Position numbers and translations under genes: made by a program. A stretch of DNA of 64,000 nt from a virus, in the IMG/VR virus record IMGVR_UViG_3300043436_002834, positions 1-64,000 of that record, one strand, 5' to 3'. This document shows, in pieces, positions 2,804 to 49,895 of the stretch. Numbering within the stretch: position 1 is the first letter of the stretch; each line of letters opens with the position of its first letter. The notes under the pieces were generated by a model. That model was not told the DNA's origin. It did no database searches and worked only from the letters and a program-made list of their open reading frames with translations.

Positions 2804-3493
2804 TTAGACTGCTGATGATAGTAACTGAATGTGCTTATCCGGAGGAGGATTGCTGTGAAATAGATTGAGAAAGTTTGGATACAATCTGATGTGACATCTC
2901 TTGCCGTCAATGATTTCTCTCTCTACATTATTCATTGCAAACCTTACACGCTTTTCTGTGAGTACTTCATCTTTGTATGAATACATACCTATTAAGGCTA
3001 TGTTGTTCTCATGCTGTATGTAGTAACCCCAAGCAAAAGCTTTGTATGATGTTCCGTGTATGGATCTGTAGGAACTCTCAAGGTCTTCTGGATCCGCCTT
3101 AAATGTAGGCGAGAAATAAAACTTAACCGTGTTACCTACACCTGATAGAACAATGTACAACTTGAGTGATGTATTCTTACCCATGCGATTGACACCAGGC
3201 TCTCTATATTTTTCATCATAGACTTCCTTGCTTTCTTTACGCATGACTATAGCATCTTTATGAGCTTCATCAGCCTTCATATATTTAATAATGGAATGCT
3301 TATCTCTATATGCTATATCATTAGCAATGCGCATCCATGTATTAAACAATTTCTTGGGATAGTATGTACCGTTGTCTAAGTATGTATACTTAGTAGTAAT
3401 TTGAGTAACTGTTCTAATCCCTGTTTCTATTACAAATCTGTCACCTATTGATGCTTTGTTTTTACTAAGCGATTGAAGAGTTTCAAATTTCAT
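2804..3493 (-). CDS. Unassigned left-arm protein, 229 aa
   Basis: A soluble protein with a beta-rich opening (residues 15-45), a lysine-rich helical middle (about 60-105) and a beta-rich domain (about 108-200) with several aromatic residues. It ends in a proline-rich tail (NPPPDKH). The stop and start of neighbouring genes overlap (ATGA with ThyX downstream at 3490-3493), tying it to the nucleotide-metabolism gene. No family is recognised. Confidence 0.7.
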   Translation of the reverse strand: MKFETLQSLSKNKASIGDRFVIETGIRTVTQITTKYTYLDNGTYYPKKLFNTWMRIANDIAYRDKHSIIKYMKADEAHKDAIVMRKESKEVYDEKYREPGVNRMGKNTSLKLYIVLSGVGNTVKFYFSPTFKADPEDLESSYRSIHGTSYKAFAWGYYIQHENNIALIGMYSYKDEVLTEKRVRFAMNNVEREIIDGKRCHIRLYPNFLNLFHSNPPPDKHIQLLSSAV

Positions 3494-4110
3494 AAGTTAA
3501 ATGCTTCTAAAGTATCATTGAATGGATTCCCTTCAATGTTCTTGACAAGGTCAAGCATCTGTTGGGCTAACTCACGTACTTCTACTTGTGCATGCTCACT
3601 ATTGCGTAGCTGTTGGAAATGATAAAAGCTGCGCCAGTTAAACATAACATCCATAGTAATCTGTGAGTTCATTAGCTTAAAGAATCTAGCTGTTTCTTTA
3701 GCTCTCTTGCGACCTAACTTAGGTGTAAGTTTCTCAAGAGCCTCATGATACCAATGATTAGATTCCTTAGTGAACCATTCAAGATGTTCAAGCCAATCTG
3801 TTGGCCAATCCTGTGGTATGTAAGCCTTATCTTCTTTCAACTCTTTGTAGCGGGCAGACTCACCGTTGATACTCACACCGATCCGGTGCTTTAGAAGATG
3901 AATGTGTGTTGCCTGATCTACTGTTACAAGAAAGTGTAAAGAAGATTTCTCAAATGGTGTGTGATGTCCCTCACTTGCTAACATCTTTAGCAATGCAGGT
4001 ATACGTTCAAATTTATCAGGAGATAAATCCCTTGATGTACTAGTCCATGCTGACAATGCATGAATGATATCTGATCCGTAGTATCCAATAAGTTCTGCTT
4101 TATTCTTCAT
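3490..4110 (-). CDS. thyX: Flavin-dependent thymidylate synthase ThyX
   Basis: Makes dTMP from dUMP using FAD, NADPH and methylene-tetrahydrofolate, supplying thymidine for phage DNA synthesis. The family signature RHRxxSxNxxSxRY is present at residues 74-88 as KHRIGVSINGESARY, with Lys in place of the first Arg. An EGHHTPFE segment (47-54) precedes it, and the C-terminal part has the typical RSFYHFQQLR and RELAQQ segments. The length of 206 aa is normal for ThyX. It overlaps both neighbours by an ATGA, so it is translated within a compact operon. Phage-encoded ThyX is common in crAss-like and other Bacteroidota phages. Confidence 0.95.
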   Translation of the reverse strand: MKNKAELIGYYGSDIIHALSAWTSTSRDLSPDKFERIPALLKMLASEGHHTPFEKSSLHFLVTVDQATHIHLLKHRIGVSINGESARYKELKEDKAYIPQDWPTDWLEHLEWFTKESNHWYHEALEKLTPKLGRKRAKETARFFKLMNSQITMDVMFNWRSFYHFQQLRNSEHAQVEVRELAQQMLDLVKNIEGNPFNDTLEAFNL

Positions 4111-4538: not shown

Positions 4539-4721
4539 TTACTTGGTATTATATAGGTGATTTAAATATTTTAATTGATTGCCTTTCTTGGTAACAGACC
4601 AATCAGGTACGCTTTTAAAGCTGTAATGTTTTACAACTTTCTTTTTAACAGGGTCTTTATGTTTAGCCATGACTATAACCGTAAGCCCTAAGATAATAGA
4701 TATTAATTTAATCTTCCGCAT
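4539..4721 (-). CDS. Small basic protein with N-terminal hydrophobic segment, 60 aa
   Basis: Residues 4-19 form a hydrophobic stretch after MRK, like a signal anchor. It is followed by a strongly basic tail (KHKDPVKKKVVKHYS) that could bind nucleic acid or phospholipid. It is the first gene after the long structured non-coding region, so its messenger may begin with, or be processed from, that region. Unassigned. Confidence 0.55.
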   Translation of the reverse strand: MRKIKLISIILGLTVIVMAKHKDPVKKKVVKHYSFKSVPDWSVTKKGNQLKYLNHLYNTK

Positions 4722-4748
4722 ACTATAGTTATTTTAATAAATAAATAG

Positions 4749-4854
4749 AACTCTCACAAGGTTGCAACCCTTGACATCTTTACCATATTCTAATGAGTTA
4801 GCCTAATGGGACTCTGTAGCGGAAAGAACTATAGTACCTGCTTGGATGAGAGTT
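4749..4854 (-). ncRNA. Putative folded RNA closed by an 8-bp helix
   Basis: The ends AACTCTCA and TGAGAGTT pair perfectly. Inside, on the minus strand, are a GAGT/ACTC hairpin with a D-arm-like loop containing AGG, and a CAAGG/CCTTG hairpin placed directly next to the 3' end strand, as a T arm would be. The loop GTTGCAA is not a normal T loop, and about 33 extra bases lie between the 5' strand and the first hairpin. It shares AATATGG in its centre with the tRNA-like gene at 5012-5095. A degenerate or permuted tRNA-like RNA is possible; function unknown. Confidence 0.4.
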
Positions 4855-4869
4855 AAATGACTGTAAGAG

Positions 4870-5010
4870 CACGTTGTTCTTTGCTTCTCTTTGATATTCA
4901 CCGCGGTTAGTCAGACCGGATAGAGCGTTTCCCTATCAGAAGTTCCATGTAGGTAATCAGCCTACTTCTCATCATATTGGACATACTATTCAGTGATGAA
5001 CTGAAACGTG
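4870..5010 (-). ncRNA. Putative multi-hairpin RNA domain
   Basis: CACGTT (5005-5010 read on the minus strand) pairs with AACGTG (4870-4875) to close a domain of about 140 nt. Local hairpins inside include TCAGT/ACTGA, GTAGG/CCTAC with a 7-nt loop, GATAG/CTATC, CGGT/ACCG with a 7-nt loop, and AAGAG/CTCTT. There is no reading frame and no canonical T loop. It begins immediately after the tRNA-like gene, so the two may be co-transcribed. Covariation would be needed to call it a true RNA gene. Confidence 0.35.
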
Positions 5011-5011
5011 T

Positions 5012-5095
5012 AACCCTAGTCAGATTCGAACTGACACTAGCCCTGGCATACACCATATTAAATTAGGACCGTGTTACCAATTACACCATAGGGTT
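5012..5095 (-). tRNA. tRNA-like gene with an expanded 20-nt anticodon loop
   Basis: On the minus strand the acceptor strands AACCCTA and TAGGGTT pair perfectly. The D arm is GTGT/ACAC with loop AATTGGTA (containing the usual GG), and the T arm is GTCAG/CTGAC with the canonical loop TTCGAAT. A 5-bp anticodon stem GTCCT/AGGGC (one G-U pair) forms with a 4-nt variable loop, but the enclosed loop (5045-5064) is 20 nt instead of 7. No conventional class II fold with a normal anticodon stem could be found. CCA is not encoded and the isotype cannot be assigned. It could be an interrupted tRNA, a decoy or a decaying gene. Confidence 0.75.
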
Positions 5096-5099
5096 AAAA

Positions 5100-5124
5100 G
5101 GAGAGGTTTCTTTCGGTACTCTCC
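5100..5124 (-). terminator. Hairpin with T run just upstream of the tRNA-like gene
   Basis: GGAGAG and CTCTCC pair across a 13-nt loop and are followed on the minus strand by TTTT and then directly by the tRNA-like acceptor stem. It may be a weak terminator or a processing signal that frees the tRNA 5' end. Confidence 0.45.
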
Positions 5125-5291
5125 CATTCTACCTGCTGACTAAGCGTTAGGTTGGCTCTCACATCTCAAAGTCATTAAGAGAACGGCACATATTCAGTTT
5201 GCATAATAAACGGGTAACTCACATCCCTAGGTTGGGCGACACTAAGAGTCATGATCGTGTCTTGTTAAATAAATGAGGACTTTCCTCTAAT

Positions 5292-5343
5292 AAAACTGTG
5301 TGTGTAGGTGGCCGTTTTCAACTCCTAATTGACACACAGTTTT
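5292..5343 (-). terminator. Hairpin with a 12-bp stem
   Basis: AAAACTGTGTGT pairs with ACACACAGTTTT across 28 bases. The A and T ends make it terminator-like in both directions. It follows the 5355-5385 hairpin in the minus direction and may back it up. Confidence 0.5.
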
Positions 5344-5354
5344 TAAAATAGAAA

Positions 5355-5385
5355 TGGAGGAGCATATAATGCATCATCTCCTCCA
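5355..5385 (-). terminator. Hairpin terminator after the 60-aa gene
   Basis: TGGAGGAG pairs perfectly with CTCCTCCA across 15 bases. On the minus strand it is followed by TTTCTATTTT, and it lies 25 bases after the stop of the gene ending at 5410. This fits an intrinsic terminator. Confidence 0.65.
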
Positions 5386-5409
5386 GTATACTGAGCCTAG
5401 ATGCTTAGA

Positions 5410-5592
5410 CTATTCAGTTGGATAATCAGGTTGATCCCGTGGATCTTCCAGCTTTTGCATGAATATGTTAGCATTAACACAATCCCTGTTACGGAATACT
5501 GCTACATGTAACATGTTCTCTGCTTGATCTACTGTTAGGTCTGAATGTATTTGTACATGACCTCTGCCGAAGTGTAAGATAACTGTCCACAT
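5410..5592 (-). CDS. Small unassigned protein, 60 aa
   Basis: A small alpha/beta protein with pattern MWTVILHFGRG (strand-turn), then a helix around residues 20-33 and a charged tail. The size and pattern resemble a ferredoxin-like fold fragment, but no family is recognised. Two bases separate it from the upstream membrane protein gene, and a hairpin terminator follows its stop. Confidence 0.55.
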   Translation of the reverse strand: MWTVILHFGRGHVQIHSDLTVDQAENMLHVAVFRNRDCVNANIFMQKLEDPRDQPDYPTE

Positions 5593-8811: not shown

Positions 8812-8966
8812 TTCTCTAATTCAATTTTTGCTAATCCCCACACTGTCATTACAAATGCAAAGATGAAGGTGAATACTGCAAAGCTTGAATTGGTGAGACC
8901 AATCATTGGAATTGATACACCAACTAAGAGTGTACCACTGATTGTCAACTTTGTTCCTTTGTCCAT
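8808..8966 (-). CDS. Small two-helix membrane protein, 52 aa
   Basis: The ATG at 8966 is the likely start; upstream codons overlap the previous gene. Two hydrophobic segments (about residues 8-22 and 28-46) are joined by a short polar turn, a helical hairpin as in small holins. It belongs to the 9147-8388 operon. Its position in the early-type arm argues against a lysis role, but this cannot be excluded. Confidence 0.6.
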   Translation of the reverse strand: MDKGTKLTISGTLLVGVSIPMIGLTNSSFAVFTFIFAFVMTVWGLAKIELEK

Positions 8967-8973
8967 AGCGCAA

Positions 8974-9147
8974 TTAGTTATTGTCTTTGAACAAAGGATG
9001 AACCAAGTTGAGAGCGAAGATAGCACCACTCAATAGAAACAAATACAAGCCTAAGATAAGCTGATCATTGTTGTTTGAGATAACTACTTGGTAAGCGCTT
9101 GCTGCTGCCATGAGAACAAGCAATAATGTAAACAAATTGTTTTTCAT
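8974..9147 (-). CDS. Small membrane protein, 57 aa, first gene of the operon
   Basis: The ATG at 9147 is preceded by an AT-rich leader with the 16-bp palindrome. Two hydrophobic segments (residues 4-21 and 31-49) flank a short Asn/Asp-rich loop. Its neighbour follows after 7 bases. As the first minus-strand gene after the strand switch it is likely among the earliest expressed. Confidence 0.6.
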   Translation of the reverse strand: MKNNLFTLLLVLMAAASAYQVVISNNNDQLILGLYLFLLSGAIFALNLVHPLFKDNN

Positions 9148-9621
9148 GATAATTAGTTTAAGGGTTTTAAAATGACTTGTCATTTAAATTTATGTTTTAG
9201 ATGAGCGTGCTGTATTAACACCCAATATACATCTAACACACTGTGCTCTGCTCTCCTCCCTGCTCTCTCCTTCTCTGTGTCTGGTGCTCCGTGTCCTGTG
9301 CTCCGGTTGTGGGTGAGAGTGCTGTCTGTTGAGCAACACCTTCTCCCCAGAGATATTTCTTTGGATCCTGCCCAGGATTTTTTCTACCCAAACTTTTTAC
9401 CTAGGGGGTACACCACTCGCAGTCCGAGGGCGGGGGGTCCGGAATGGTAGGGTACCACCACACCCTTATATTGTCCAGTTTTAATTTACCCAAAAAGTTC
9501 TTACCTTTACAATGCTACAGATTGATTGCCCTGGGGGTTGTTCTTTCATTCTTACCCCTGGGGGGATCTAAATAATGGTAATGTAGTTTAGATTTTTATT
9601 TTAACCTGTGGAACAAACTGC
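9148..9621. other. Divergent strand-switch region, candidate origin and promoters
   Basis: All genes to the left run leftward and all to the right run rightward. The 470 bases between hold no gene. They include a long C/T-rich tract (about 9232-9280), two GTGCTCCG copies (about 9283 and 9298), CCCTGGGGG at 9529 and 9556, and TACCCAAA...TTACC arrangements near 9390 and 9488. The local GC content is well above that of the surroundings. Such regions carry divergent early promoters and often a replication origin, but no DnaA-type box or clear A+T unwinding element was identified. Confidence 0.55.
9170..9185. promoter_or_regulatory. 16-bp palindrome, second copy
   Basis: AAATGACTTGTCATTT is identical to 8199-8214 and again just upstream of a minus-strand gene. 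It is followed on the distal side by AAATTTATGTTTTA and GCGTGCTGT, which also recur in the other leaders. Confidence 0.7.
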
Positions 9622-13279: not shown

Positions 13280-14302
13280 ATGTTAAATAATAGCATTAAC
13301 TTCTTTAATCTGATTAAAACAAAAATGATCAGAAAATCTGTTCAGCCAAATGATTTAATTTATTATGGCGAAAAAGATTCTAAATATAATGGTGGCTACA
13401 AACCTGTAGCTATTTCAGGTGAAGACCTTAAAGCATCTTTAACTGGACTACAAGGTGCGGTAGGTCCACAAGGTCCAATTGGCCCACAGGGTGTACCCGG
13501 TCCAGTTGGTCCTGCAGGTTTAACTTGGCAAGGAGCTTGGACATCAGGAGCAACTTATGCAATTGATGATGCTGTTGGATACAATGGCGCATCTTGGTTT
13601 TGTATTGCTCCAACAAGTGCCACAACACCTCCAAACTTAGCCACAACTGAATGGGCTTTACTTGCTGCTCAAGGCGCTACAGGTCCACAGGGTCCACAGG
13701 GTATTGCTGGTCCTGCCGGTCCATCTGGATCAGGATTATCCGGTACTGCTTATGGTCAAACTACATACTGGAATTCATTTACAGCTCAATGGACACCGAC
13801 AGGTGGTCTAATGACTAATCCAGGCACAGGTGCTCAAGGAACAGCAAGAGTTGCAATTGGTACAACTTCAATTAACCAAACAGGTTATGCGTTAAGAATG
13901 TTTACCAATAATGCAGGTTTGCGAATTGACCAAATTACTCCAGGTTTTGGTATTGCTAATTGGTTAGCCAATAATGCAACTGCATCTCAATATGGATTAA
14001 ATGGTAGCAATGCTGATCCCCTATCTAACTATGCATTTTATTTTACTAATTTTAATAATTATGCAATTAAATTTGCTACAAACACTAATGGTGGCGGTGG
14101 TGACAGATTCCTTATTCAAGGTAATGGTCAGGTAACAGTAGGTTCTGCTTTGGCAACAAACACAGAAGCTAATTTAGTTGTAAAAACAAAAGACATTGAA
14201 GTAGAAGAAATTGGCAAAGGCCTTATTCTTACTTCTCCTGATGGAACTCGTTACAGAATTAGAGTAAGTAACGGTGGTGTTATTGCAGCTACTGCTGTTT
14301 AA
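13280..14302 (+). CDS. Collagen-like tail fibre/adhesin, 340 aa
   Basis: Residues about 55-82 and 132-156 are Gly-X-Y repeats rich in GPQGPIGPQG-type triplets, which form collagen-like trimeric stems. Between them lies a WQGAWTSGATYAIDDAVGY module of the carbohydrate-binding type common in phage fibres. The C-terminal part (about 160-340) is Asn/Gly/Thr-rich beta structure ending in a short strand pair. It is probably a trimeric virion fibre contacting the host surface. An alternative start is the ATG at 13325. Confidence 0.8.
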   Translation: MLNNSINFFNLIKTKMIRKSVQPNDLIYYGEKDSKYNGGYKPVAISGEDLKASLTGLQGAVGPQGPIGPQGVPGPVGPAGLTWQGAWTSGATYAIDDAVGYNGASWFCIAPTSATTPPNLATTEWALLAAQGATGPQGPQGIAGPAGPSGSGLSGTAYGQTTYWNSFTAQWTPTGGLMTNPGTGAQGTARVAIGTTSINQTGYALRMFTNNAGLRIDQITPGFGIANWLANNATASQYGLNGSNADPLSNYAFYFTNFNNYAIKFATNTNGGGGDRFLIQGNGQVTVGSALATNTEANLVVKTKDIEVEEIGKGLILTSPDGTRYRIRVSNGGVIAATAV

Positions 14303-46129: not shown

Positions 46130-47164
46130 ATGGGATGTTCATCTTGTCAACAAAATAATCATGTAGTACCAAGTACACATGTACACAATCCAACTGCACA
46201 AACTCATTGTGAATGTGCTTGTGGTTGTGAGGAACCGGTGTGTCCTACACCTCAGCCTTGTACTGAGATTACAGATAGCAAATGTATCATTTATACTGAT
46301 GCTCCTATTAAGTGTGGAAATAACGTTGTTGTAACCACTAATGCTAGTGTTTCTACAGCTCTAAACCAAATTACAAACTTTTTTTGTGGTTTAGCAGGCT
46401 TAGTAACAACAGCGGATATACTTTGCGGGGACACTGTAATTGTACCTGCAGGAAGTTCAATTCAGGCAGCTTTTGAATTAACAGTACAATTTATTTGTAG
46501 TATTCAATTAACCCCGGGTCCACAAGGTCCTGCTGGCGCTCAAGGTCCCGTAGGAGCAACTGGTGCAACTGGTGCTACTGGACAGCAAGGTCCAATTGGT
46601 TTAACTGGCGCAACAGGTCCACAAGGCCCGATAGGATTAACAGGACCCGCTGGAGCAGCAGGTTTATATTCACAAACTAGAAGTTCTACTCCTGTGACTA
46701 ATGCAACAGGAATGGCTTCATTAATTGGTCTTGGTTCAGGAACATTAAGTGTACCAGCAAATGCTTTTCAAGTAGGTGATTCTTTTAAAGCTACATTACA
46801 TGGACAAGTTACATGTGCAAATAACCAACAATTAAGGGTTGTAATTTTTTCTAATGGTAATATATTAGCCACTACACCTTTGATTGTATTGCCGCAAATT
46901 ACAGGAAAACACTGGACATTAGAAATTGATTTTGTTATTCGCGCAATTGGCGGTCCGGCAACTGCAGTTATTATGACAGGAGGTAATTTCATTTACAATA
47001 AAGATTCTAATAATGTCTATGAGGGTGTTGGTTTTAGATTTGAACAAGCTACTTTATTTGATACAACTGTATTAAACACATTGACTATTGAAGCTGAATG
47101 GGGAACGGTTAATGCAGCGAATTCTATCTACAGCGAAATTTTCAATTTATTTAAAACATTCTAA
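46130..47164 (+). CDS. Collagen-like virion fibre with Cys-rich head, 344 aa
   Basis: Residues 1-50 are Cys-rich ([19 protein letters not shown]), residues about 130-178 are Gly-X-Y repeats ([20 protein letters not shown]), and the last 165 residues are a jelly-roll-like beta domain of the TNF/C1q kind often found after phage collagen stems. It is likely a trimeric fibre with a metal- or disulfide-bound base and a globular binding tip. Confidence 0.75.
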
Positions 47165-47166
47165 GC

Positions 47167-47664
47167 ATGTGTGTAAATTGCGGAAATAATCATTGTGCTG
47201 GAAATTGCCAAGTACTTCCTAAAGGTTTAAGAGGACCTAGAGGATACAAAGGCGATAAAGGAGATAAAGGAGATCAGGGTCCTATTGGATTAACTGGTCC
47301 GCAAGGCCCTGCCGGAAATCCTGGCACTAACGGTGCTTCTGGTCTTCCTGGCGGTGTTGGACCTCAAGGTCCTATTGGACCCATTGGACCACAAGGGTTA
47401 CCTGGACTTCCTGGAGCAAATGGGATTAACGGTACTAATGGTTTAGATGGAGCTCCGGGTCCTGCCGGCAATGCAGGTCCACAAGGAGATCAAGGTTATT
47501 CAGGTAGAGGTGTAGCTGTATTTACACAAGCTAGTCAACCTACCGCAGCTGACTTTAATACGTCTTATGGTTCTGTAGATGGATTTGGTGTTAATTATGT
47601 ACCAGGTTCGGGAAACAATGCTATCCGTCCAGGAGATATCTGGATTCAATCTTGTACACCTTAA
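47167..47664 (+). CDS. Collagen-like fibre protein, 165 aa
   Basis: Residues about 18-117 are nearly continuous Gly-X-Y repeats (starting GLRGPRGYKGDKGDKGDQGP), the longest collagen-like run in the window, flanked by a Cys-rich start (CVNCGNNHCAGNC) and a short Trp/Cys C-terminus (WIQSCTP). Probably a thin trimeric fibre, expressed together with the VWA-like protein whose gene starts 2 bases later. Confidence 0.8.
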   Translation: MCVNCGNNHCAGNCQVLPKGLRGPRGYKGDKGDKGDQGPIGLTGPQGPAGNPGTNGASGLPGGVGPQGPIGPIGPQGLPGLPGANGINGTNGLDGAPGPAGNAGPQGDQGYSGRGVAVFTQASQPTAADFNTSYGSVDGFGVNYVPGSGNNAIRPGDIWIQSCTP

Positions 47665-47665
47665 T

Positions 47666-49384
47666 ATGAGCGGATTTAAAATTTTTGATGGTACAAACTG
47701 GGTTGATCCTTGTAATTGCAATATTAGCATCTTAGATGTTGATGGTGTAACTTATAAGTTAATTAATCCGCATAACTGTATTGTTAGTTATTTTGACGGA
47801 ACTAATTGGTGTCCGATAACTTGCCCTTGTGAATGTCCTTCTGGATATACATTTAATGCAAGCACCAATTCATGTGAAGCTGTAGAAATAAGTCCTGCAA
47901 CACCATCAGGCGGAACAACTGCTCCTGTAGTTGCAGGTAATACAAATACAGGTTATTCTGAATTTGGAGCCAGGCTTTATGAAAACATTACAGGTTCTGT
48001 ATATCCTCTTAATGGTTGGCAAAATACAACAATTTGCACTACCTGTTCTACAGGTTACCAAGTTCTTGAAAACGCAGGTACTGGATCTGCATTAGCCATT
48101 CAGCAACTTTCTGCAGTAGATAGCGATATCTTTAATTCACAAGGAACTACAACTTTAGGAAGACTTAATAATACAGGTCTGTGGGCTACAGGATTTCCTA
48201 ATAATCAATGGTTAAATGTAGAATTTTGCATAAACATTGCAGAAACTAAAACATATATATTTGCATTAGCTGGCGATAACCAAGTTAAAGCTGATATTAC
48301 ATCAACTACTTTTAATGGAGGTGGAACATTTAACTTAGTAAATTTATGGGCATCAGACAGTCCAACAGGATTGCCTGCAAGTATAACAACTATGCCACAT
48401 AAGTTATGGCACATGTTTCCTATTACATTGCCTGCGGGATCTCATACATTAAAATTATCAGGATATAACTTTGCTGCAGATAAAGCATTTGGTGCAGAAA
48501 TATATGATATTTCTGAATTAGACATGACTGGTTTGATGACATCATCTACAGCAACAGTTGGTGATCTACAACCTTATATTTTATTTTCAACAGAAAGTTT
48601 AATTACAAGTCCTCCTTTGCTTATTCCGATGCCGGGACAAACAATTACATGGTCTTGTCCTTCAGGTAGCACATACAGTCTTTGTTATGGTGCACCATCT
48701 TGCATTACGGTTGATTCTATTCCATGTGGTAATCAACAACCTTTAACTATCAATACCGAAGTTAATATTTGGTTTGATAATTCAGGATCAATGAATACTA
48801 CAAGATTGGGTCTTGAATTAATGCAAGCACAAGAACTTAAAACTGCGTTGCTTCCTATTTTTAATTATGATGAAACCTTGTACAATAAAAGAGTAAAACT
48901 CTTTGATATGAATGGTTCATCATGGAATTATAATCAGAGATTTATTAAATGTTTGGCAGAAGAAAGAAATTTTCAAAGAACTCCAGACACAGATGTAAAT
49001 CAAGTAATCAATCTTGTTTTTACAGATAGATCCGTTATCTATGGTTATGGTTCTACTGAAGAATTTGATAACACTGCTAGAGAAGAGCAATATGACTTAG
49101 ATGTAGATGATTTAAGAAATGTTATGGCTACTGCAGGTTATGATATTAAAGGAACCGTGTTTAGAATAAATAGTGATCAAAATAGTTATGTTGGGTTTAG
49201 AACATTAGTTCAATCTACTTTTGTAAACAATCAAGCATATACTAAACCTTATAATTTAAATGATTTTTATTCATTAAACTTTAACTGTAATTTAGATACT
49301 ATGGCTGCAGATAAATCATCCTATTATAAGGATCAGGTTGTTGCTGCATTAAGAGCTTTAGATATTGTTGTGCCAGTTGTATAA
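47666..49384 (+). CDS. VWA-domain-containing adhesin, 572 aa
   Basis: From residue about 366 on there is a VWA-like domain: VNIWFDNSGSMNTTRL contains the metal-ion MIDAS motif D371-x-S373-x-S375. A later acidic NLVFTDRSVIYGYG segment could complete it. The N-terminal 365 residues are beta-rich adhesive domains with CPCECPSG and GTTAPVVAGNTNTG parts. VWA domains bind proteins or glycans through a metal ion, so this is a good candidate for the host-binding tip. The ATG at 47666 is preferred over a longer frame overlapping the collagen gene. Confidence 0.75.
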   Translation: MSGFKIFDGTNWVDPCNCNISILDVDGVTYKLINPHNCIVSYFDGTNWCPITCPCECPSGYTFNASTNSCEAVEISPATPSGGTTAPVVAGNTNTGYSEFGARLYENITGSVYPLNGWQNTTICTTCSTGYQVLENAGTGSALAIQQLSAVDSDIFNSQGTTTLGRLNNTGLWATGFPNNQWLNVEFCINIAETKTYIFALAGDNQVKADITSTTFNGGGTFNLVNLWASDSPTGLPASITTMPHKLWHMFPITLPAGSHTLKLSGYNFAADKAFGAEIYDISELDMTGLMTSSTATVGDLQPYILFSTESLITSPPLLIPMPGQTITWSCPSGSTYSLCYGAPSCITVDSIPCGNQQPLTINTEVNIWFDNSGSMNTTRLGLELMQAQELKTALLPIFNYDETLYNKRVKLFDMNGSSWNYNQRFIKCLAEERNFQRTPDTDVNQVINLVFTDRSVIYGYGSTEEFDNTAREEQYDLDVDDLRNVMATAGYDIKGTVFRINSDQNSYVGFRTLVQSTFVNNQAYTKPYNLNDFYSLNFNCNLDTMAADKSSYYKDQVVAALRALDIVVPVV

Positions 49385-49394
49385 AAAATAAGAT

Positions 49395-49895
49395 ATGAGT
49401 TGTAGTTGTAAAGGCGCATGTGAATGCAGTAGTCATGAAGTTAAACTAAGAGGTCCTCGTGGATTTAAAGGAGACAAAGGGGAACCTGGTGTAGCCGGTC
49501 CTCAAGGAATTCAAGGTCTTGTAGGTCCCGTTGGACCCCAAGGACCTGTTGGTCCTCAAGGGCCTTCAGGAATGACAACTAACCAACTTGCTGTAAAAAT
49601 TACACATGTTGGCGGACAACTGAAAGCTAATGTATATGGAGGAATTGGTACCGTTACTTATGCATGGGAAATGGCTGATGTATTGGTAATGAATAATGCA
49701 TATCATTACTTTCAGTTTAATACTCCAATAAATATACAAACAGTTGGCGTTTCTTTAACTAACTTTACACCTGCGTTTAATGGTTGTAATGCAACTAACA
49801 ATGCGCAAATAGGAATGGCCAAGGTAACAGTAACAGATGCAACCGGCAGAAAAGCTATTGATACATTCTTACTTTTGAATGTGAATTGTGCTTAA
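49395..49895 (+). CDS. Short collagen-like fibre protein, 166 aa
   Basis: Residues 1-13 carry Cys ([12 protein letters not shown]), residues about 16-58 are Gly-X-Y repeats, and the last 105 residues form a beta sandwich with an Ig-like YAWEMA strand (VTYAWEM). It resembles a truncated version of the 46130 protein. It ends the island just before a terminator. Confidence 0.75.

Follow-up and report, generated by a model that had tools for sequence, protein, structure and literature searches.

Sequence comparison indicates that a row of at least four separate genes for structured RNAs lies in the non-coding region at 4722-5409 of the window (the whole 64,000-nucleotide stretch analysed, which belongs to a virus record of 84,842 bases). 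Four closely packed modules lie on the minus strand at 4749-5277, namely M4 (5096-5277), the tRNA-like RNA T1 (5011-5095), M2 (4858-5010, abutting T1) and element A (4749-4854), and each of them recurs independently, in changed orders, in other phage contigs. Scans of the viral collection yielded A in 114 stretches (more than 100 viral contigs), M2 in 20, T1 in 8 and the M4 core in 6, with a few chance matches among the hits to the A pattern (for example, L217); the pattern searches preset some of the conserved letters, and the invariance of those letters is thus partly by construction. At loci harbouring at least two modules the order varies, and all modules occupy a single strand in 66 of 66 such loci.

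The region is flanked by the minus-strand genes 5410-5592 and 4539-4721, with no long ORF between them, and is present as a 100% copy in IMGVR_UViG_3300044846_003022. Genes around 1-9 kb are on the minus strand; from ~9.6 kb onwards the late genes occupy the plus strand. The major capsid protein shows a distant likeness to that of Leptolyngbya phage Lbo-JY46 (27% over 99%) and a weak likeness to those of Cellulophaga and other crAss-like phages. In addition, a ThyX thymidylate synthase (window 3490-4110) is 67% identical to the ThyX of a podovirus from Manatee Spring (MW202828), and several late-gene products (window 13280-14302 and 46130-49895) harbour collagen-like GPQG/GLTG repeats.

A first-pass annotation had read 4722-5409 as a structured cassette that plausibly encodes a set of small RNAs. 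The set of RNAs is supported, as its three named parts plus 5096-5277 have independent homologues and compensatory changes were found in A, T1 and M2. Positions 5345-5409 lie outside the array and represent the conserved 3′ terminus of gene 5410-5592, located upstream, with its hairpin (5357-5385, minus strand), both shared with a sister phage. In the comparison with shuffled sequence that the annotation had proposed, the folding energy of the whole region is nearly neutral (z around −1.7; −1.67 on the minus and −1.71 on the plus strand), and on the minus strand the domains of A and M2 reach merely −0.9 and −0.4, respectively. The one exceptional fold is the long hairpin AAAACTGTGTGTG...CACACACAGTTTT at about 5284-5341 on the minus strand (z −4.9, measured over 5270-5345), for which no homologue was found in the search of other phages' loci. 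Folding energy alone is uninformative on RNA genes here; it is comparison between phages that shows them. Beside the long hairpin, a terminator scan in which ~0.8 such sites are expected by chance returned GAGGA-AAG-TCCTC, a small hairpin with T-rich sequence behind it (5275-5287, minus strand), as a terminator-like match.

Element A consists of a constant frame around a variable insert. The 8-bp helix AACTCTCA/TGAGAGTT that had been noticed earlier (4749-4756 with 4847-4854) is present and forms the outer stem of A (read on the minus strand, 4854-4847 paired with 4756-4749); inside it follow TCCAA-GCAGG (4846-4837), the insert (4774-4836) and the hairpin CAAGG-GTTGCAA-CCTTG (4773-4757). The GCAGG stretch may form a GCA:TGC contact with the loop of this hairpin. 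All members share the frame ACTCTCA-TCCAA-(TT)GCAGG ... CAAGG-RTTGCAA-CCTTG-TGAGAGT, and a 98% identical copy of A was found in L188 and L268, in a different context. Among 40 diverse members, 99.8% of the cells of predicted pairs are paired, and two-sided changes occur in 6 of the 12 pairs, compared with 0.4 in shuffles (0 of 500 shuffles was as good). Compensatory examples include ACTCTTG/CAAGAGT in the outer stem, and CAGGG/CCCTG, AAAGG/CCTTT and TAAGG/CCTTA in the stem of the T-arm-like hairpin (4757-4773, minus strand; loop RTTGCAA), where the changes likewise keep pairing. After alignment the identity is 95.4% in the frame and 35.5% in the insert; the absolute invariance of frame letters preset by the search should be discounted, the covarying positions of the outer stem being less affected.

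The inserts fall into ~31 classes that are freely combined with 62 classes of left flank and 48 classes of right flank. Within the class found in the window, TTCTTTCCG...GAATATGGTAAAGATG is retained in seven aligned members with differing apical hairpins, and TTCTTTCCG...GAATATGGYAAAGATG is likewise kept while the apical hairpin varies; TTTCCG...AATATGGTAAAG is an example of such a conserved insert motif with differing apical hairpins. Between different frames, a search for the same insert returned only chance-level matches of 12-13 nt. A model of A (R1), which scores 76 bits on the copy in the window, found it in 19 of 22 records, usually as a single copy in each genome, whereas 974 kb of further phage DNA gave zero matches. 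Among 84,980 bacterial and archaeal genomes the A pattern produced four hits, all without the outer stem and attributed to chance, and named phages contain no convincing match to A or to the RNA region of L216.

The frame of A resembles that of a tRNA in several respects. The T-arm-like 3′ hairpin that had been proposed for 4749-4854 was borne out, with a 5-bp stem and a 7-nt loop stacked without a gap on a 7-bp acceptor-like stem, just as the T arm of a tRNA abuts the acceptor stem; A also has a T after the 5′ strand at the place of tRNA U8, and the motif AATATGG is, as had been reported, common to A and the tRNA-like gene. The base preceding A is T in 71 of 80 copies, and AC follows the stem in 70 of 80, as it follows 107 of 142 tRNA-type genes in the same contigs; these flank motifs comprise few bases, and common descent of the copies could account for part of the agreement. 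In L224 and L163, A is located a few bases after a tRNA gene, in the former case inside a tRNA array. The canonical T loop TTCRANN is absent from A, whose loop is RTTGCAA in all members (partly preset by the search), and the Rfam tRNA model found no match over 4749-4854 at E values up to 10; A was therefore not filed as a tRNA. A point against reading these RNAs as tRNA scaffolds is that their 3′ ends mostly lack an encoded CCA.

The tRNA-like gene itself was recovered at 5011-5095 on the minus strand by ARAGORN and by the Rfam tRNA model (46.4 bits against a gathering score of 29; the whole-window run with fast filters did not report it). T1 has normal acceptor and T arms and a 4-bp D stem, and its anticodon stem is closed by a conserved 20-nt loop in place of the 7-nt anticodon loop that decoding calls for; ARAGORN fits this loop only as one with a 13-nt 'intron'. 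Extra sequence in the anticodon loop is also found in bacterial tRNA genes with group I introns, yet the 13 extra nucleotides of T1 are far too few for such an intron, and no intron family was matched in the window. Between phages, the acceptor stem of T1 is replaced completely with all seven pairs kept (two-sided compensatory changes in 7 of 7 pairs), and the T stem likewise (4 of 5 pairs). The middle of the molecule, including the 20-nt loop, is almost fixed, and across contigs of 19-174 kb the core is almost invariant (90% in L216), although part of it was preset by the search pattern.

It could be argued that the region is a decayed tRNA array, populated by functionless relics of tRNA genes, given that a tRNA-like gene unable to decode normally sits beside other tRNA-like pieces and that the D loop lacks GG in three of seven T1 copies. 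The compensatory changes that maintain pairing in T1 and A render such decay very improbable, and the near-invariance of the T1 core (in part preset, as stated) speaks in the same direction.

Phage tRNA genes and arrays (RF00005) are a close known likeness for both RNAs, with which T1 shares acceptor, D and T arms and A shares acceptor-like and T-arm-like helices and tRNA-type flank bases, and near which both are found. The differences are the 20-nt rather than 7-nt anticodon loop of T1 and, for A, the non-canonical T loop and the lack of a tRNA call. Further RNAs of 70-161 nt overall keep the frame AGTCAGGTGGCGGAA...GACGC / CAGGTTCGAATCCTGTCCTGACTAC around interiors that differ greatly in length. 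Moreover, at L163:644-1011, L171:11743-11905, L332:8904-9201 and L224:5155-5716 there are tRNA genes of 75-161 nt in which the anticodon arm is swapped for other sequence within an almost constant tRNA frame, several of them fitted by ARAGORN only as tRNAs with odd short introns.

M2 and M4 vary in a modular manner as well. M2 is 95% identical in L188, where it is located 3.6 kb from A, and 84% identical in L230; it has a conserved 5′ core with two hairpins, and its 3′ part is replaced in L340, L341 and L346. In most cases M2 begins immediately behind the 3′ end of a tRNA or tRNA-like gene, and another tRNA often comes next. Covarying pairs were thus found in the relatives for A, T1 and the two hairpins of M2 (7 of its 15 predicted pairs with two-sided changes), but the 6-bp helix CACGTT/AACGTG that had been proposed to close the domain, and which is indeed present (4870-4875 with 5005-5010), has no clear covariation. 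M4 has a 79% copy in L181 and partial copies in L252, L232, L216, L311, L282, L197, L247 and L165; in L252, L232, L216, L311 and L197 its 5′ half alone is joined to other 3′ halves. Its 3′ end is a terminator-like hairpin, GGAGAG...CTCTCC, followed by TTTT, and terminator-like ends with changed stems (L247 and L165) or a long T run (L181) are found in relatives.

One junction was found both with and without the modules. In the sister record G036, whose portal is 89% identical to that of the window, the upstream gene is retained together with its hairpin (83%) and the next gene follows immediately, without the RNA block; L181, which shares 84% identity with G036 at this place, has M4 directly before that same next gene. 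A block missing from this junction in a sister phage, M4 standing there alone in L181, and freely recombined inserts and flanks would also suit shuffling at the DNA level, in which the constant ends would serve small mobile cassettes as sites of recombination or insertion and the RNA folds would be incidental. This is improbable, as it does not account for the two-sided compensatory changes in A and T1, G-U intermediates included, or for the constant orientation of the modules to one another; no recombinase or target-site duplication was noticed, and the mosaic is explained by ordinary homologous recombination at conserved RNA genes.

The relatives carry other recurrent RNAs. Element B is a second constant-frame RNA (L230:4971-5125, minus strand; L233:5630-5750), the core of which occurs in 49 viral contigs and which was not found in the window. 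Its layout is TGCACC..[CTCAC]TTCCCAAGG[GTGAG]CAGTTGTA-insert (29-186 nt)-TACAACTGAGTGCAGAGGGG, and substitutions in the stem of its hairpin preserve pairing (CCTGA/TCAGG, TCTAC/GTAGA, TCAGC/GCTGA and CTTAT/ATAAG); the CCC of its loop could pair with the 3′ GGGG. Two more recurrent modules adjoin A: hairpin C (CCACAAGGTTTCAGGC..TCTCATCCTGTAAAGCAG..CTTGTGG; L216:2916-2980 and L167:825-891) and module D (L216:3091-3180 and L233:5538-5629), which has a hairpin, AAAGG-ATCGCAA-CCTTT, resembling that of A. Upstream of a C-A-D-B module run, a Hatchet self-cleaving ribozyme (81 bits) was detected at L167:46-208 and L251:7663-7825.

The main rival to trans-acting RNAs is a cis-acting punctuation of operons, in which the modules would be processing or stability signals in a polycistronic early mRNA, cleaved so that the following message is released, and the excised pieces would have no function; tRNAs punctuate mitochondrial transcripts in a comparable way. 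The modules do lie between genes, in the coding orientation, and copies of M4 end in terminator-like hairpins. Element B often stands shortly ahead of the next start codon: in 79 of 98 cases an ORF begins within 400 nt, at a median distance of 83 nt. No single neighbour gene is conserved at most of the loci, a pattern that suits a signal independent of the adjoining gene. Punctuation would leave unexplained, however, the ~31 insert classes, the conserved motifs within the inserts and the 20-nt loop of T1, and we regard it as unlikely.

In the window only tRNA (T1) reaches the Rfam gathering score, and A, M2 and M4 match no family; nor did any family match those modules in the relatives carrying A, M2 or M4, or in L216. 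No call of a tmRNA with a tag peptide was made by ARAGORN in the window. Two further candidates were rejected: GAGGAAAGTCC at 5277-5287, considered as RNase P RNA, is just a short hairpin with no Rfam match, and the C/D snoRNA-like boxes in M2 are weak matches far below threshold. GOLLD (RF02032) and ROOL resemble the modules as structured non-coding phage RNAs of uncertain role that are often near tRNA islands, and the GOLLD linker sometimes carries tRNAs (PMC12286853). On that basis the region might be one large ornate RNA of GOLLD/ROOL type with a tRNA inside, and L348 has GOLLD together with M2 and tRNA-frame RNAs. The Rfam models of GOLLD and ROOL gave no match in the window, however, with GOLLD recovered in L348 as a positive control, and the modules are separable pieces of 85-180 nt that are shuffled into different orders; this reading is largely refuted, and its probability is very small. 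In L348 the GOLLD RNA is located at 8832-9239 (335.8 bits), on a contig with M2 and several tRNA-frame RNAs.

The explanation we favour, at about even chances of being right, is that small trans-acting RNAs, built on tRNA-like scaffolds and released by tRNA-type processing, are arrayed in the region, their variable domains being directed against host factors. M4, T1, M2 and A would be separate RNA genes expressed within the early operon of the minus strand. Of these, A and T1 would be tRNA-like scaffolds, in each of which a 7-bp acceptor-like stem and a T-arm-like hairpin hold another structure in place of the anticodon arm, and would probably be cut out by RNase P and an enzyme that processes tRNA 3′ ends. 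The frame would supply ends and stability, and the variable inner domain would act in trans by binding an RNA or protein of the host, most probably serving as an inhibitor or decoy in a contest with host defence or translation. The independent recurrence, the shared strand, the covariation, the constant frame with a variable insert, the presence and absence in close relatives and the tRNA-like flanks support this explanation. As regards targets, antisense matches of the modules within the window are no more than in shuffles, and antisense action on the phage's own genes was rejected there, as the longest matches (11-14 nt) equal those of shuffles. A bolder version, a natural RNA display in which constant frames carry an inner domain that diversifies, is exchanged between phages and is used in trans against host defence or translation, is tentative and somewhat doubtful.

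In the design of engineered tRNA scaffolds, a foreign RNA replaces the anticodon arm of a tRNA frame; the phage version differs in being natural and, in A, in having ~31 insert classes. Engineered scaffolds are used for RNA expression, as described, for example, in PMC3753655. Across the open-access full-text literature, no description of a frame-and-insert RNA design was found; provisionally, this design is new, structured RNAs near phage tRNA genes being already known.

At least three RNA families without an Rfam match (A, M2 and M4, plus B in relatives) are present in many viral contigs; RNA genes thus account for a visible share of the 'empty' DNA in these phages. An RNA design in which the frame stays constant and the inner domain can be exchanged, as in A, B and the tRNA-framed RNAs, would be new and lends itself to testable constructs; if natural display is true, it would be an RNA counterpart of exchangeable binding domains. 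Frame-and-insert RNAs would also bear on the roles of GOLLD, ROOL and odd tRNAs in phage tRNA islands.
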